Source: Deltaproteobacteria bacterium
GTDB lineage: Bacteria; Myxococcota_A; Polyangia; HGW-17
Length of the DNA stretch: 48,957 nt
NCBI GenBank assembly: GCA_027858615.1
Contig: JAQICJ010000214.1
Span: 1 to 48,957, forward strand
Reading direction: 5' to 3'
Both the position numbers and the translations under genes were made by a program. How positions within the stretch are numbered: position 1 is the first letter of the stretch; each line of letters begins with the position of its first letter. The notes under the pieces are model-generated. The model was not told the DNA's origin. It ran no database searches and saw nothing but the letters and a program-made list of their open reading frames with translations. Below, one piece after another: positions 18,965-24,306 of the stretch.

Positions 18965-18991
18965 CCCCGTTAAGTTTATTCAGGTTTTTTT
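18961..18991 (+). terminator. Terminator-like module ATAACCCCGTTA-N10-GGTTTTTTT
   Basis: The 12-mer overlaps the stop codon of the plus-strand membrane protein gene and is followed after 10 nt by GGTTTTTTT. AACC and GGTT can pair before the T run, so a weak intrinsic terminator is possible. The same arrangement occurs at 24683-24714 and 30389-30410. Here it separates convergent genes (18964 plus, 18976 minus). Confidence 0.4.
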
Positions 18992-20259
18992 GATTTGTTG
19001 AAAAAAGCTATGAGCCAGAGTATCGAAAAGATAGACAAAAATATGTAGTTATTTTCTGATGGCTCCAAGTCTCCTTCTTCTATTTTTTTGATAATATCTA
19101 TGCCAATTGAGGAACTGCCAATATAGGAGACAAATAAAAGTATTTTCATTGACATACTTCTGATTTTGCCTTTTTCTCTGTTTCTTCTGAAGCCTTTTAG
19201 AAATAGAAGGAAAAAGTTGAAGGTAGAAAATCCCATTAGCAAAAGCAAAAGGGGTTTATGAATTTCCTCGTTAAACTCACTAAGATATCCCAGTGTAGCT
19301 AATCCGAAAATTAATACTCCAAATGAACCCAGCAGAGCATACACAAGACCCAAAAATCCACGGCTGTTTTTTCTGGGAGGAGGAAGATGTACACCTGAAA
19401 TATTGTTTTTTTCAGTTTCAGTGAGGTTTTCCACCGGCAAGGTAACCAGTTGATTTGCCTGAACTTGGTTCAATTCGTTTAGTACCGGCTCTGATTTTAT
19501 GACATTTTTTAAAAGAATTTCGAGTTTGGTTACAGGGATTTCATAATAAAGAGATAAAAAGTAAACATTGTATTTCTTCATTTTGCGCAACAGAAAAATT
19601 CCAATAACAACCATTGGTAGAATCATTGAGCCAATAATTACAGCAAGTTCACTGATCGACGGATTTGCCATGGTATAGTGTTGGTAAAAAAGCACAGCAT
19701 CATAAACACCATGGAAAGTTATTGGAAGGATGAGAGCTGAAACCCAGAAAGGTGCAGGAGAAAGGTGTTTCGGGGTGAACTTTGCTCTGCCTATGTAATA
19801 TCCCATGATTAAGCCACAGAAAAGATGCAAGGGGATGGCTGATACAGCTCTGACCAATGCTAATTGTATTCCTCCGGCACTGACATAGAAGAAGTTTTCC
19901 AGTACTGCAAAACCAAGAGATGACGCAGTAGCGTAAATGATGCCGTCAAAGGGCTCATCAAATTCTTTACGATTGTATGCTACCCAGTAGACGGTGAGTA
20001 ATTTAAACAGTTCTTCCGGAATGGCAGCCCAGAAAAAGGCTTCATAAAAAGACCGCTGCAAGGGCGCTTCAGGGGTTCCGTATGTTTTGATAATGCTGAC
20101 GACTATAATAACAGGGATGGCTATCAGAGCTCCAAATAAGGTGACTTTTGCAATTAATTTGGCTGGTTCTCTGTGTTCATCGTGGGAATAGATGAATAAA
20201 AAAATAAGAAAGGCTGGAACAACAGTAGCCAGAATTGTAAGCAGACTATTTGCGCTCAT
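18976..20259 (-). CDS. prsW: PrsW-family intramembrane metalloprotease
   Basis: A 427-residue polytopic membrane protein. The four PrsW/CAAX-protease-like motifs are present: E82-E83-L-F-K, E121-N-F-F, H145-L-F-C-G and H183-G-V-Y-D187, so the metal site looks intact. In Bacillus, PrsW cleaves an anti-sigma factor; the substrate here is unknown. A soluble linker (about 215-310) and four further C-terminal hydrophobic segments follow the protease core. The gene is 4 bp after ptsI and is the last gene of the hprK-rapZ-ptsH-ptsI operon, an unusual neighbour for PrsW. Confidence 0.88.
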   Translation of the reverse strand: MSANSLLTILATVVPAFLIFLFIYSHDEHREPAKLIAKVTLFGALIAIPVIIVVSIIKTYGTPEAPLQRSFYEAFFWAAIPEELFKLLTVYWVAYNRKEFDEPFDGIIYATASSLGFAVLENFFYVSAGGIQLALVRAVSAIPLHLFCGLIMGYYIGRAKFTPKHLSPAPFWVSALILPITFHGVYDAVLFYQHYTMANPSISELAVIIGSMILPMVVIGIFLLRKMKKYNVYFLSLYYEIPVTKLEILLKNVIKSEPVLNELNQVQANQLVTLPVENLTETEKNNISGVHLPPPRKNSRGFLGLVYALLGSFGVLIFGLATLGYLSEFNEEIHKPLLLLLMGFSTFNFFLLFLKGFRRNREKGKIRSMSMKILLFVSYIGSSSIGIDIIKKIEEGDLEPSENNYIFLSIFSILWLIAFFNKSKKPE

Positions 20260-20263
20260 ATAA

Positions 20264-22039
20264 TTACTCTGAATATTTTAATCGGGAGTCGTCAATTGCT
20301 TCTTCAAAATTTTTGATGAAAAGTTGAATAATTCCTTTGGCAGTTTGCATTTCAAGAGCTTGTTCAGTGATCTTTTCAACTTTACGCAATTCAATATTGC
20401 GAATAAGCTTTTTGATGTGGGGGATATAAGCAGGAGGCATGGATAAATTTTCAATTCCCATTCCTATCAGGATAAGAGCAGCAATAGGATCTGTAGCGGT
20501 ATCACCACAGACGGAAATAGGGATTTTAGCATTTTTAGCGGATTTTATGGTTCTTTTGATTAATCGCAGAATTCCTGGATGCAAAGGCTGATAGAGATCG
20601 GAAATCATGTCATTATTGCGATCTATCCCCAGAGAATATTGGGTTAAATCGTTGGAACCGATTGAAAAGAAATCGGATTTGGTAGCCAGATGGTCAGATA
20701 TCATGCAGGCAGAAGGTAGTTCGATCATGGTTCCGATTGAGATATTGTCTGGAATATCATGTCCTTCTTGTAATAGTTCGTTGATGCATTCCCAATAGAC
20801 TTCTTTCGCACTGAGAAATTCCTCCATGGAGCCAACCAGAGGAAACATGATACGCAGTTCTACACTATGATTTTTAATATATGCTCGCAGGATTCCTCTT
20901 AATTGTGATTTGAGAATAGTTCGTTCTTTCAGAGCCAGTCTGATGGAGCGTAGTCCGAGAGCAGGATTCGGTTCATTGCTGAAATCAGCCTCCAGGGGAA
21001 ATTTGTCTCCGCCCAAATCAAAAGTTCTGATGGTGATAGGAGAGATGGAACTGCTTTCAAGAAGTTTCAGAGTGTCTTTAAAGTGTAGTTTTTCATCAAG
21101 AGCATCACGAAAATTATTGATAAAAAGAAATTCCGTACGATAAAGACCGATCCCCTCTGCACCATGACTGTTTGCAGCCTCTATTTCATTGACGAAATCA
21201 ATATTGGCACTGATTTTTATGGTGTAATCGTCCTTGGTTTTGGCAGGTTTGGCACTTTGTTTAAGTAGATTCTGCTCGAAGGCCAAGGCTTTGTGCATTC
21301 TGGTTCTGTATTTCTGAACCATTTCCACGTCGGGGTTGGCGATAAGTTGACCTGAATTTGCATCAAGAAGCAGAAGATCTCCTGTGCCCACTTCAGTTGT
21401 AATATTTTTGATGCCCACAATAGTTGGTATTTCAAATGCTTTGGCGATAATAATCGTGTGGGAAGTTTTTCCGCCTTTTTCGATGACCATTCCAGAGATT
21501 GCATTTTTGCCAATTTGGATTGTTTCCGCCGGGCTCAGTTCTTTGGCCACGACAATTGCATCAGGAGGAGGTTGGGCAATATAGTTGTTTTTACCTGAAA
21601 GATTTCGAATCAGACGTCTAGATACAAATTTTAAATCAGAAATTCTTTCTTGCATGTATTCATCATCAACGCTGAGAAACAGAGTTTTCCATTTTTCCAG
21701 GGTTTTATTTATCGCCCATTCAGCATTGACCAATTCATGCCTGATTGTTTCGATTACTTGTTTTTGCAGTTCTTCATCCTGAATCATCATTTGATGAGCT
21801 TCAAGAATATGACCAGGATCCTTGTGATCTGCAGAAATTTTATTTTTGATCATTTCGAGTTCATCAAAGCCTTTTTTCAAAGCATTCTTGAACCGATCAA
21901 TTTCAATCTCGACTTGTTGAGAAACAATATGACTGTGGGTGTCAGTATCTTTTTCTCTTTCAATTACAAAGGCTCTGCCAATCACAATACCTGGGATTAC
22001 CCCATTTCCCTGGTAATATTGATTTTTGATTTTCATCAA
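20264..22039 (-). CDS. ptsI: Phosphoenolpyruvate-protein phosphotransferase (PTS enzyme I)
   Basis: Transfers phosphate from PEP to HPr. The 591 residues show the HPr-binding helical domain, the phosphohistidine domain with GGKTSH194TIIIAK, and the PEP-binding barrel with YRTEFLFINN, TFDLGGDK, NPALGLRSIR, LRIMFPLV, FSIGSNDLTQYSLGIDR and the active-site Cys in SVCGDTATDP. All expected catalytic residues are seen. It overlaps ptsH by 4 bp (ATGA). There is no EIIA, EIIB or EIIC in the window, so the role may be regulatory. Confidence 0.96.
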   Translation of the reverse strand: MMKIKNQYYQGNGVIPGIVIGRAFVIEREKDTDTHSHIVSQQVEIEIDRFKNALKKGFDELEMIKNKISADHKDPGHILEAHQMMIQDEELQKQVIETIRHELVNAEWAINKTLEKWKTLFLSVDDEYMQERISDLKFVSRRLIRNLSGKNNYIAQPPPDAIVVAKELSPAETIQIGKNAISGMVIEKGGKTSHTIIIAKAFEIPTIVGIKNITTEVGTGDLLLLDANSGQLIANPDVEMVQKYRTRMHKALAFEQNLLKQSAKPAKTKDDYTIKISANIDFVNEIEAANSHGAEGIGLYRTEFLFINNFRDALDEKLHFKDTLKLLESSSISPITIRTFDLGGDKFPLEADFSNEPNPALGLRSIRLALKERTILKSQLRGILRAYIKNHSVELRIMFPLVGSMEEFLSAKEVYWECINELLQEGHDIPDNISIGTMIELPSACMISDHLATKSDFFSIGSNDLTQYSLGIDRNNDMISDLYQPLHPGILRLIKRTIKSAKNAKIPISVCGDTATDPIAALILIGMGIENLSMPPAYIPHIKKLIRNIELRKVEKITEQALEMQTAKGIIQLFIKNFEEAIDDSRLKYSE

Positions 22040-22320
22040 TTATTTTCCTCAAGGTTGAATTTATTGTTGATAAGCTCGGCCAAAACGGAAACAGCTTCAG
22101 CAGCATCTTCTCCAACAGCAGTGATTTTAAGGGTGCAGCCCTTGAAAGCCAGAAGACCGAGCAAACTCATTATGCTTTTACCATTAGCTATTGCATCTTT
22201 GTGGAATACTTCAATTTCAGATTCGAATTTATTGGCATTTTCCACGAAAACTTTAGCTGGTCTGGCATGAAGTCCCTGGCTGTTTTTGATAGTAACTTCA
22301 ACCTCATGAATTTTGCTCAA
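22036..22320 (-). CDS. ptsH: Phosphocarrier protein HPr
   Basis: A 94-residue HPr. The active-site histidine is His18 in GLHARPA, and the regulatory serine targeted by HPr kinase is Ser49 in GKSIMSLL, so both phosphorylation sites are present. AAGGAG lies 6-7 nt before ATG 22320. A possible promoter (TTGCAA, 18 nt, TAAATT on the minus strand, about 22391-22362) precedes it, so it may have its own transcript besides the hprK-rapZ read-through. Confidence 0.95.
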   Translation of the reverse strand: MSKIHEVEVTIKNSQGLHARPAKVFVENANKFESEIEVFHKDAIANGKSIMSLLGLLAFKGCTLKITAVGEDAAEAVSVLAELINNKFNLEENN

Positions 22321-22477
22321 GATTTTTCTCCTTAAAATCCAAAATTAAATCTATAACCGATTAAATTTACAATAGAATGGCAGGTGGTTGCAACCAGAAA
22401 ATTTTTTATCTGCACTGGATTGTCCTTTTTTGCTTACATTGCACCAAGATGGGGTAAATCATCAGAAGATGTGTGGG

Positions 22478-23344
22478 TTAAACTTGTGGGAGGAGTTCAA
22501 GGTTTAGATCCCTGTGTCTGAATTCGGAATTGAAGCCTTTTGTCTTGAGAAGGCCACTTAGTTCTTCGGTGATATAAACGCTTCTGTGTTTACCTCCTGT
22601 GCAACCAATACCGCAATTGAGATAGGTTTTCCCTTCTTTTTGGTATTTGGGAATCAGATAGATCAAAAGGGCAAGAGTCTTATCCAAAAATTCAGATGGT
22701 TCCTCATGTTCTTGGAAAAATTTAATAATCTGGGGAGAATTACCAGGCAGACCGGAGAGTCTTTCCACAAAATAAGGGTTAGGCAAAAATCTTACATCAA
22801 AAACCAGATCGGCTTCAGTAAGAATCCCTCTACTGAAGCCGAAAGAAACAATATTTATTATCAATTCAGGTCTGGGATATTGTGAAAAAATATTGAGGAT
22901 TTTGGAACGCAGTTCATGGGCTGTTAACTCTGAAGTATCTACAATTATGGAGTTATCTGATATGATTCTGGAAAGGAATTCCTTTTCCGTTTTAATGGTT
23001 TTAAGTAGAAATCTTCCACCTAAGGGATGAGGACGCCTGGTTGTTTTATAGCGTTTTATAATGGTTTTCTGGGAAGCTTTAAGAAAAATGATTTGCAGAT
23101 AGTGCCCTGCTCGTAGTAACTCATTTTTGATCTTGTCCCATTCATCCAAGTAGATACGGTTACGGACATCAATGACAATTGCTGCTTTTTCAACATTATT
23201 TCCAGTTGTTTCAAGTAAATCTACAAAATTTTTAAGCAAAGGTATGGGAAGATTGTCTACGGTATAGAAACCCAAATCTTCCAAAGTGTGCAAAGCGATA
23301 GTTTTTCCTGCACCTGAAAATCCGCTTACAATGATTAATTTCAT
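22478..23344 (-). CDS. rapZ: RNase adapter / nucleotide-binding protein RapZ (YvcJ)
   Basis: P-loop protein; E. coli RapZ guides RNase E to the sRNA GlmZ, and the Bacillus YvcJ homologue binds and hydrolyses nucleotides. The 288 residues show Walker A GFSGAGKT (8-15), DNLPIPLL, VIDVRNR, the FLPNPYF block and the C-terminal CGIGCTGGKHRSVYI. Its ATG overlaps a TGA that closes the interrupted reading frame following hprK (ATGA, 23344-23341), supporting ancestral coupling with hprK. The 157-bp gap to ptsH holds no EIIA gene. Confidence 0.95.
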   Translation of the reverse strand: MKLIIVSGFSGAGKTIALHTLEDLGFYTVDNLPIPLLKNFVDLLETTGNNVEKAAIVIDVRNRIYLDEWDKIKNELLRAGHYLQIIFLKASQKTIIKRYKTTRRPHPLGGRFLLKTIKTEKEFLSRIISDNSIIVDTSELTAHELRSKILNIFSQYPRPELIINIVSFGFSRGILTEADLVFDVRFLPNPYFVERLSGLPGNSPQIIKFFQEHEEPSEFLDKTLALLIYLIPKYQKEGKTYLNCGIGCTGGKHRSVYITEELSGLLKTKGFNSEFRHRDLNLELLPQV

Positions 23345-23433
23345 TCGACAATTTCCTCCAAAATAAAATTGGAACTGTTTTTGTGAAGAGCTTCTTCAAG
23401 TTTTTTCTGGAAAATTTTGGCGCTGTTTATTCC
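23341..23433 (-). other. Open-frame continuation of hprK after the TGA
   Basis: Thirty in-frame codons plus a TGA follow the hprK stop without interruption. Their translation begins GINSAKIFQKKLEEAL, a good match to the family's C-terminal amphipathic helix. The closing TGA overlaps the rapZ ATG by the usual ATGA arrangement. TTGGAGG within it (about 23362-23356) serves as the rapZ ribosome-binding site. Either the TGA is a recent nonsense change, it is read through, or it is an error in this sequence. Confidence 0.75.
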
Positions 23434-24306
23434 TCACAGTTTGAGGATTCGATCCCGGGCTGCAACTTCGATGATAGTGGCCATAGTTTTTCCCGGTCTG
23501 ACCGGAAGTATCAGTAACGGAACACTAAGACCGAGAATTTCGGTAGAATGGTCGTCAAGTCCAAGCCTTTCATATTCTTCTTCACTTTCCCATTTTTCAA
23601 GATTAATAATCAGTTCTATTTTTTTCTTGTCACGTACACTGGCAGGACCGAATAATCTGGGAATACTGATAATTCCGAGTCCTCTGATTTCCATATGATG
23701 TTTAACTACAGGAGTTCCTCTTCCTTCCAAAACATCGGGGTGATGTTTATGTATTTCCACAGAATCATCAGCCACCAGACTGTGTCCCCTGGAGATAAGA
23801 TCAAGGGCGATTTCACTTTTGCCGATCCCACTTTTACCTTTCAACAACACTCCAATTCCGAAAACATCCAGAAGTACTCCGTGTAATCGGGTTACTTCCC
23901 TGGTATATTCCTCAAGAATGCTGGAAAGTTTGTCAATAAATTCAGAAGTATTACGGGAGGTAGTTAACAAAGTTGTTTTTGTTTGCGTTGAAATGGTTTT
24001 AAGGCATTTGGGGATTTTTAGTTGCTTGGTAACTATTGAACACGCTGGCTCCATTTCAAAAAGATTTTCCAAGGCTTCTTTGCGCTTTTCTTCAGACAAA
24101 TTAAACAGAAAACTGATTTCAGTGGAGCCGAAAATTACAATGCCATTGTTTACCCGGTTGCTCTCTATTCCTGTGAGAAGCAGTCCTGCTGTAAAATAAC
24201 GGGAATTTGAAAGATTTTTCCAGGTACCCTCTGGATATTTGACAATTTTCAGATCCAGATAAGTACCTGCATTTTCAAGAAGTTGTTTAATTGTAAAATT
24301 GCTCAT
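23434..24306 (-). CDS. hprK: HPr kinase/phosphorylase, ending early at an in-frame TGA
   Basis: Phosphorylates HPr on Ser49 and removes that phosphate by phosphorolysis. Visible features are the N-terminal domain, His142 in LHGVLLD, Walker A GKSGIGKS (157-164), VADDSVEI and the signature EIRGLGIISI (206-215). At 290 residues it is shorter than the usual 305-320 and stops right after AARDRILKL at TGA 23436-23434. The same frame stays open for 30 codons (23433-23344) encoding GINSAKIFQKKLEEALHKNS..., which resembles the conserved C-terminal helix (G-x-N-A-A-x-x-F), and closes at TGA 23343-23341. Other genes here use TGA as a normal stop. The catalytic core is intact; the loss may affect HPr contact or reflect an error in the sequence. 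Confidence 0.92.
   Translation of the reverse strand: MSNFTIKQLLENAGTYLDLKIVKYPEGTWKNLSNSRYFTAGLLLTGIESNRVNNGIVIFGSTEISFLFNLSEEKRKEALENLFEMEPACSIVTKQLKIPKCLKTISTQTKTTLLTTSRNTSEFIDKLSSILEEYTREVTRLHGVLLDVFGIGVLLKGKSGIGKSEIALDLISRGHSLVADDSVEIHKHHPDVLEGRGTPVVKHHMEIRGLGIISIPRLFGPASVRDKKKIELIINLEKWESEEEYERLGLDDHSTEILGLSVPLLILPVRPGKTMATIIEVAARDRILKL

Follow-up and report, generated by a model that had tools for sequence, protein, structure and literature searches.

HPr, the substrate of HPr kinase/phosphorylase (HprK), is bound jointly by two neighbouring monomers of the enzyme, one contributing the catalytic site and the other its C-terminal helix (PMC9399212). The HprK of Brucella, which is devoid of the C-terminal region, phosphorylates NPr and barely dephosphorylates P-Ser-NPr (PMC2937029). 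As for stop codons inside genes, premature TGA codons in E. coli are read through at a mean frequency of 0.5-5.6%, depending on temperature and mostly with insertion of Trp (PMC11126739), and assembly errors are a documented origin of internal stops (PMC11017572). The preliminary description of the window analysed here (the whole stretch of 48,957 nucleotides) had reported an hprK gene that ends at an in-frame TGA (23436-23434) after residue 290, and 30 further open codons closed by a TGA that overlaps the rapZ ATG as ATGA. We found the position of the stop to be exact, and the open codons and their terminal TGA lie at 23433-23344 and 23343-23341, respectively (Table 1).

Table 1. Features of the hprK-rapZ-ptsH-ptsI region, in window coordinates.
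Feature	Position	Strand	Remarks
hprK up to the premature stop, 290 aa	23434..24306	(-)	Hpr_kinase_N E=1.2e-22, Hpr_kinase_C E=1.7e-61
In-frame TGA, codon 291, context CTG TGA GGA	23434..23436	(-)	sense codons in relatives (Gln, Arg, Met, others)
Open continuation, 30 codons	23344..23433	(-)	family C-terminal helix (model residues 296-310) and acidic tail, end IVE
Original hprK stop TGA, overlapping the rapZ start as ATGA	23341..23343	(-)	rapZ ATG 23344-23342
Shine-Dalgarno-like GGAGG, few bases upstream of the rapZ ATG	23353..23359 (approximate)	(-)	read from sequence
rapZ, 288 aa, intact	22478..23344	(-)	
ptsH (HPr), intact, HprK substrate	22036..22320	(-)	histidine site GLHARPA, Ser46-type serine site GKSIMSLLGL
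ptsI (enzyme I), open throughout	20264..22039	(-)	same order in relative G001

The truncated reading frame contains, in order, the N-terminal domain, the P-loop GKSGIGKS, the MEIRGLGI signature, VRPGKT and the terminal RILKL*. Its 290-residue product passed both Pfam cut-offs, with 80.7 bits for the N-terminal domain (cut-off 24) and 207.1 bits for the C-terminal domain (cut-off 33.3). The P-loop (GKSGIGKSE) and the signature, which follows the pattern (I,L,M)E(I,V)RG, fall in columns that are largely invariant in our alignments with relatives. The codons of the C-terminal helix that contacts HPr are in frame but lie beyond the TGA, so the helix is absent from the 290-residue product; this weakens the notion of a fully functional bifunctional HprK, not the homology to HPr kinase/phosphorylase. 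A Pfam Hpr_kinase_C search of the genome (312 contigs, 92.9% complete) revealed no second intact copy of hprK.

The gene belongs to a conserved operon, hprK-rapZ-ptsH-ptsI, and HPr with its regulatory Ser, the substrate of the enzyme, is thus present in the genome (ptsH 22320-22036). Since rapZ has its own Shine-Dalgarno-like GGAGG, it could be started without coupling to hprK. Behind the operon lies a gene whose product we assigned by eye as a PrsW-like membrane protein, and the whole arrangement spans 18976-24306 on the (-) strand; the same order was found in the relative G001 (L102, 481-5718), which suggests a conserved linkage of this gene to the PTS genes.

In the next step, we asked what the continuation encodes. 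It translates as GINSAKIFQKKLEEALHKNSSNFILEEIVE (23433-23344), the peptide sequence encoded behind the TGA being GINSAKIFQKKLEEALHK. In the Pfam genome search, the Hpr_kinase_C match crossed the TGA and reached profile position 170 of 171, with one TGA reported inside; with the 290-residue protein alone, the match ended at position 157. We also built an HMM from the tails of 98 relatives, leaving out the hprK of this genome, and searched it against 623 kb of the same genome, cut into 30,799 stop-to-stop fragments. The continuation ranked first, in the correct place and the correct frame, with E = 0.012 for the whole set, the runner-up having 1.3. It shares with the 98 relatives the conserved residues G292, S295, A296, F299 and L303 as well as the V-E at its end. 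Chance similarity to the HprK tail was rejected on the basis of this ranking, and a split gene with re-initiation was rejected because the piece behind the stop has no Pfam match of its own and no opening start codon. The proposal that the continuation encodes the C-terminal helix conserved in the family was therefore upheld, and the helix is indeed of the kind that touches HPr, supplied by the neighbouring subunit in the published complex (PMC9399212). An AlphaFold model based on 18 sequences (mean pLDDT 82.9) showed a helix at 276-290, a short break, a second helix at 296-310, modelled with lower confidence, and a disordered end. As the helix 276-290 ends at the stop in this model, the predicted loss does not go beyond the final helix and the acidic tail.

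Alignment of hprK from relatives over codon 291 revealed sense codons throughout. The stop was absent from all 109 related loci (0 of 98 distinct proteins) and is private to this genome among the genomes compared. All 109 loci extend at least 28 residues beyond R284, in comparison to only six in the truncated product, and the tails of the relatives match the continuation, rather than showing a family C-terminus of another kind. Position 291 itself is variable: mostly Gln, then Arg and Met, with Q, R, M, L, H, T, A, G and K all observed. The codon is AGA in the two closest relatives (G001 and G004) and CGC in the family's two remaining genera (G002 and G003). The family comprises eight genomes in four genera, with no genus mate of this genome among them; the nearest relatives are metagenome bins of 59-62% identity. 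By its relatives, the genome that contains the window is placed in the Myxococcota. An alignment scan found 80 relatives, none near enough to be a genus mate, and a single-protein scan of genome contigs gave no matches.

We then compared the tail behind the stop with intact tails. The helix of this genome shares 0.62-0.69 identity with the closest relatives and the catalytic body 0.71-0.74; between the closest relatives and the G002 gene, the values are 0.56 and 0.71. Judged by these identities, the tail behind the stop appears to have drifted no more than intact tails, with no sign of relaxed drift. Thus either the stop is young, or it does not exist in the organism, or ribosomes still translate the tail. 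Any loss of the tail would be recent on the scale of the divergence from the compared relatives, and a wrong base, or continued translation of the tail, would leave the tail intact just as well.

We favour, at somewhat better than an even chance, a real and recent single-base nonsense change in an otherwise ordinary Myxococcota hprK. The variable codon 291 (Gln, Arg or Met in relatives, AGA for Arg in the two closest) would have been turned into TGA by one base change in the sequenced lineage. Translation would then end after the penultimate helix, leaving a main product without the HPr-touching C-terminal helix. The change would be real in the organism, and young. The short protein may be impaired, or biased towards the kinase and a poor phosphorylase, and ordinary UGA leakage, with Trp inserted at the tolerant position 291, could supply perhaps a few percent of full-length subunits.

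The second explanation, which we regard as distinctly less probable but as a serious one, is an error of the consensus or assembly, or a contig that carries the allele of a minor strain, with a normal full-length hprK in the organism. Internal stops correlate strongly with assembly quality and coverage (PMC11017572), and this draft genome has 312 contigs and 92.9% completeness, while those members of its family that were traced by name are metagenome bins. The tail behind the stop is wholly intact and unrelaxed and the event is isolated, as would be expected of an error. However, the change is a single substitution rather than a homopolymer indel, and the assembly does not look error-rich, because no second internal TGA was found in the 346 sampled gene ends or in the 29 matches to ABC domains (none of which contained an internal stop). 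Among the 346 gene ends, located in a 623 kb sample of genome stretches and including 104 TGA ends, a short coding-like extension after TGA was present at hprK only; other extensions past gene ends were neighbouring genes or non-coding, the long ones that were inspected being neighbouring genes. Codon usage suggested one further candidate, downstream of a TAG in L089, which was discarded as an apparent shadow frame of the antisense strand. The weighting of a real nonsense change against a consensus error is a matter of judgement, since internal stops are not in excess among the sampled genes, yet are known from imperfect assemblies.

Two further explanations require that the TGA is read. Reassignment of UGA, as in genetic codes 4 and 25, or its use for selenocysteine, we consider scarcely credible. 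Nothing but the in-frame TGA of hprK itself speaks for it. In this genome of about 93% completeness, which limits every statement on missing recoding machinery, SelA was not found, all matches to the tRNA-Sec model were below the cut-off (those checked being Ser, Leu, Tyr and other ordinary tRNAs), and the 37 tRNA matches had standard anticodons, with Trp read only by CCA and with no UCA anticodon. One truncated tRNA at a contig end was read by eye as having the anticodon TTT. RF2 is present, TGA ends 104 of the 346 sampled genes (623 kb), and residue 291 was never Cys or Trp in the related loci. Both selenocysteine and code reassignment were rejected on these grounds, in agreement with the preliminary description, which had considered global UGA reassignment unlikely.

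Functional readthrough would let a near-cognate tRNA-Trp decode the stop in a set fraction of events, so that long and short HprK would share each hexamer and tune the balance of kinase and phosphorylase; we regard this as improbable. The tail is intact behind the TGA, according to both the tail HMM and the conserved residues, and residue 291 is variable enough in relatives (Q, R, M, L, H, T, A, G, K) to accept Trp. In E. coli, TGA is the leakiest stop, and a following G, cold and poor medium all raise readthrough (PMC11126739). Loss of RF3 also raises UGA extension in E. coli (PMC5373646), and we found no match to RF3 (prfC) above the NCBIfam cut-off in the whole genome G000, the weaker matches looking like other translational GTPases. 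Against this, the stop is conserved in no relative, the downstream RNA has no stable structure (fold z = +0.5 versus shuffles), and no other gene among the 346 gene ends has the same pattern. The TGA-G context is not special either, because 18 of the 104 TGA ends have G next. A programmed readthrough element was set aside as improbable for lack of downstream structure and of conservation of the stop. Its regulated form, in which mixed hexamers of long and helix-less subunits would respond to temperature or starvation by a shift between the kinase and the phosphorylase, appears highly improbable. Basal leakage is another matter: it is common to many TGA stops and here bears no sign of regulation, and the TGA-G context, the lack of an RF3 match above the cut-off and the leakage of TGA in E. 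coli together make it plausible, by analogy, that some full-length HprK subunits are made. Thus, of the three explanations offered in the preliminary description, a recent nonsense change and a sequence error each fit all observations, but readthrough or recoding gained no positive support, the stop being unconserved, the RNA unstructured and SelA not found.

Alternatively, the helix-less 290-residue enzyme could be a settled short form, kept because loss of the phosphorylase or a changed contact with HPr is useful. The stop sits exactly between two helices of the AlphaFold model, the alpha-proteobacterial HprK of Sphingomonas (L206, 151 aa) is without the same helix and tail, and the Brucella enzyme retains kinase activity (PMC2937029). 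However, apart from the alpha type, each of the 109 related loci keeps the helix, and the downstream codons are undecayed, whereas decay is expected after long disuse; a settled short form is thus quite improbable in our view. By analogy, the 290-residue HprK, if real, might be biased towards the kinase, and it is equally possible that it is a null allele. The analogy with the alpha-proteobacterial enzymes is limited, because those are also without the N-terminal domain and a further region.

Taken together, these results point to an ordinary mutation of recent origin, or to an error of sequencing, as the source of the TGA in hprK, rather than to a novel reading of the code. Recoding finds no support, since there is no SelA and no UGA-reading tRNA in the genome as covered, RF2 is present, and no RNA structure and no second case were found, the latter among the 346 sampled gene ends (104 TGA). 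If the stop is real, the locus offers a natural test of the role of the HprK C-terminal helix, in a two-domain enzyme encoded next to intact HPr and enzyme I. An error, in turn, would illustrate that recoding should not be claimed from a conserved in-frame tail downstream of a stop in a draft genome until the reads have been inspected. Either way, current ideas on the genetic code or the PTS are unchanged.

In comparison to the described HPr kinase/phosphorylases (PF02603 and PF07475; L. casei 1JB1/1KKL/1KKM, S. xylosus 1KO7), the enzyme has both domains, the P-loop, the MEIRGLGI signature and the VRPGK region, but its frame stops before the C-terminal helix that is present in all close relatives. 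The in-frame UGA followed by an open extension resembles bacterial UGA readthrough at nudL and pheL of E. coli (PMC5373646), the difference being that the hprK extension is known from sequence alone. The single internal stop with an intact flanking frame is also a property of pseudogenes in draft assemblies (PMC11017572), but this genome shows no general excess of internal stops in the sampled genes. The short alpha-proteobacterial HprKs of Brucella melitensis and Sphingomonas likewise miss the C-terminal helix, and the Sphingomonas gene also adjoins rapZ, being located just upstream of it; on the 880 kb plasmid of Sphingomonas parapaucimobilis, the gene for the 151-residue HprK (L206, 789-1244) overlaps rapZ (1217-1999) by 28 bases. 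These short enzymes are, however, also without the N-terminal domain and an additional region needed for the phosphorylase (PMC2937029), whereas in the hprK studied here the last helix alone is lost and its codons are intact behind the stop.
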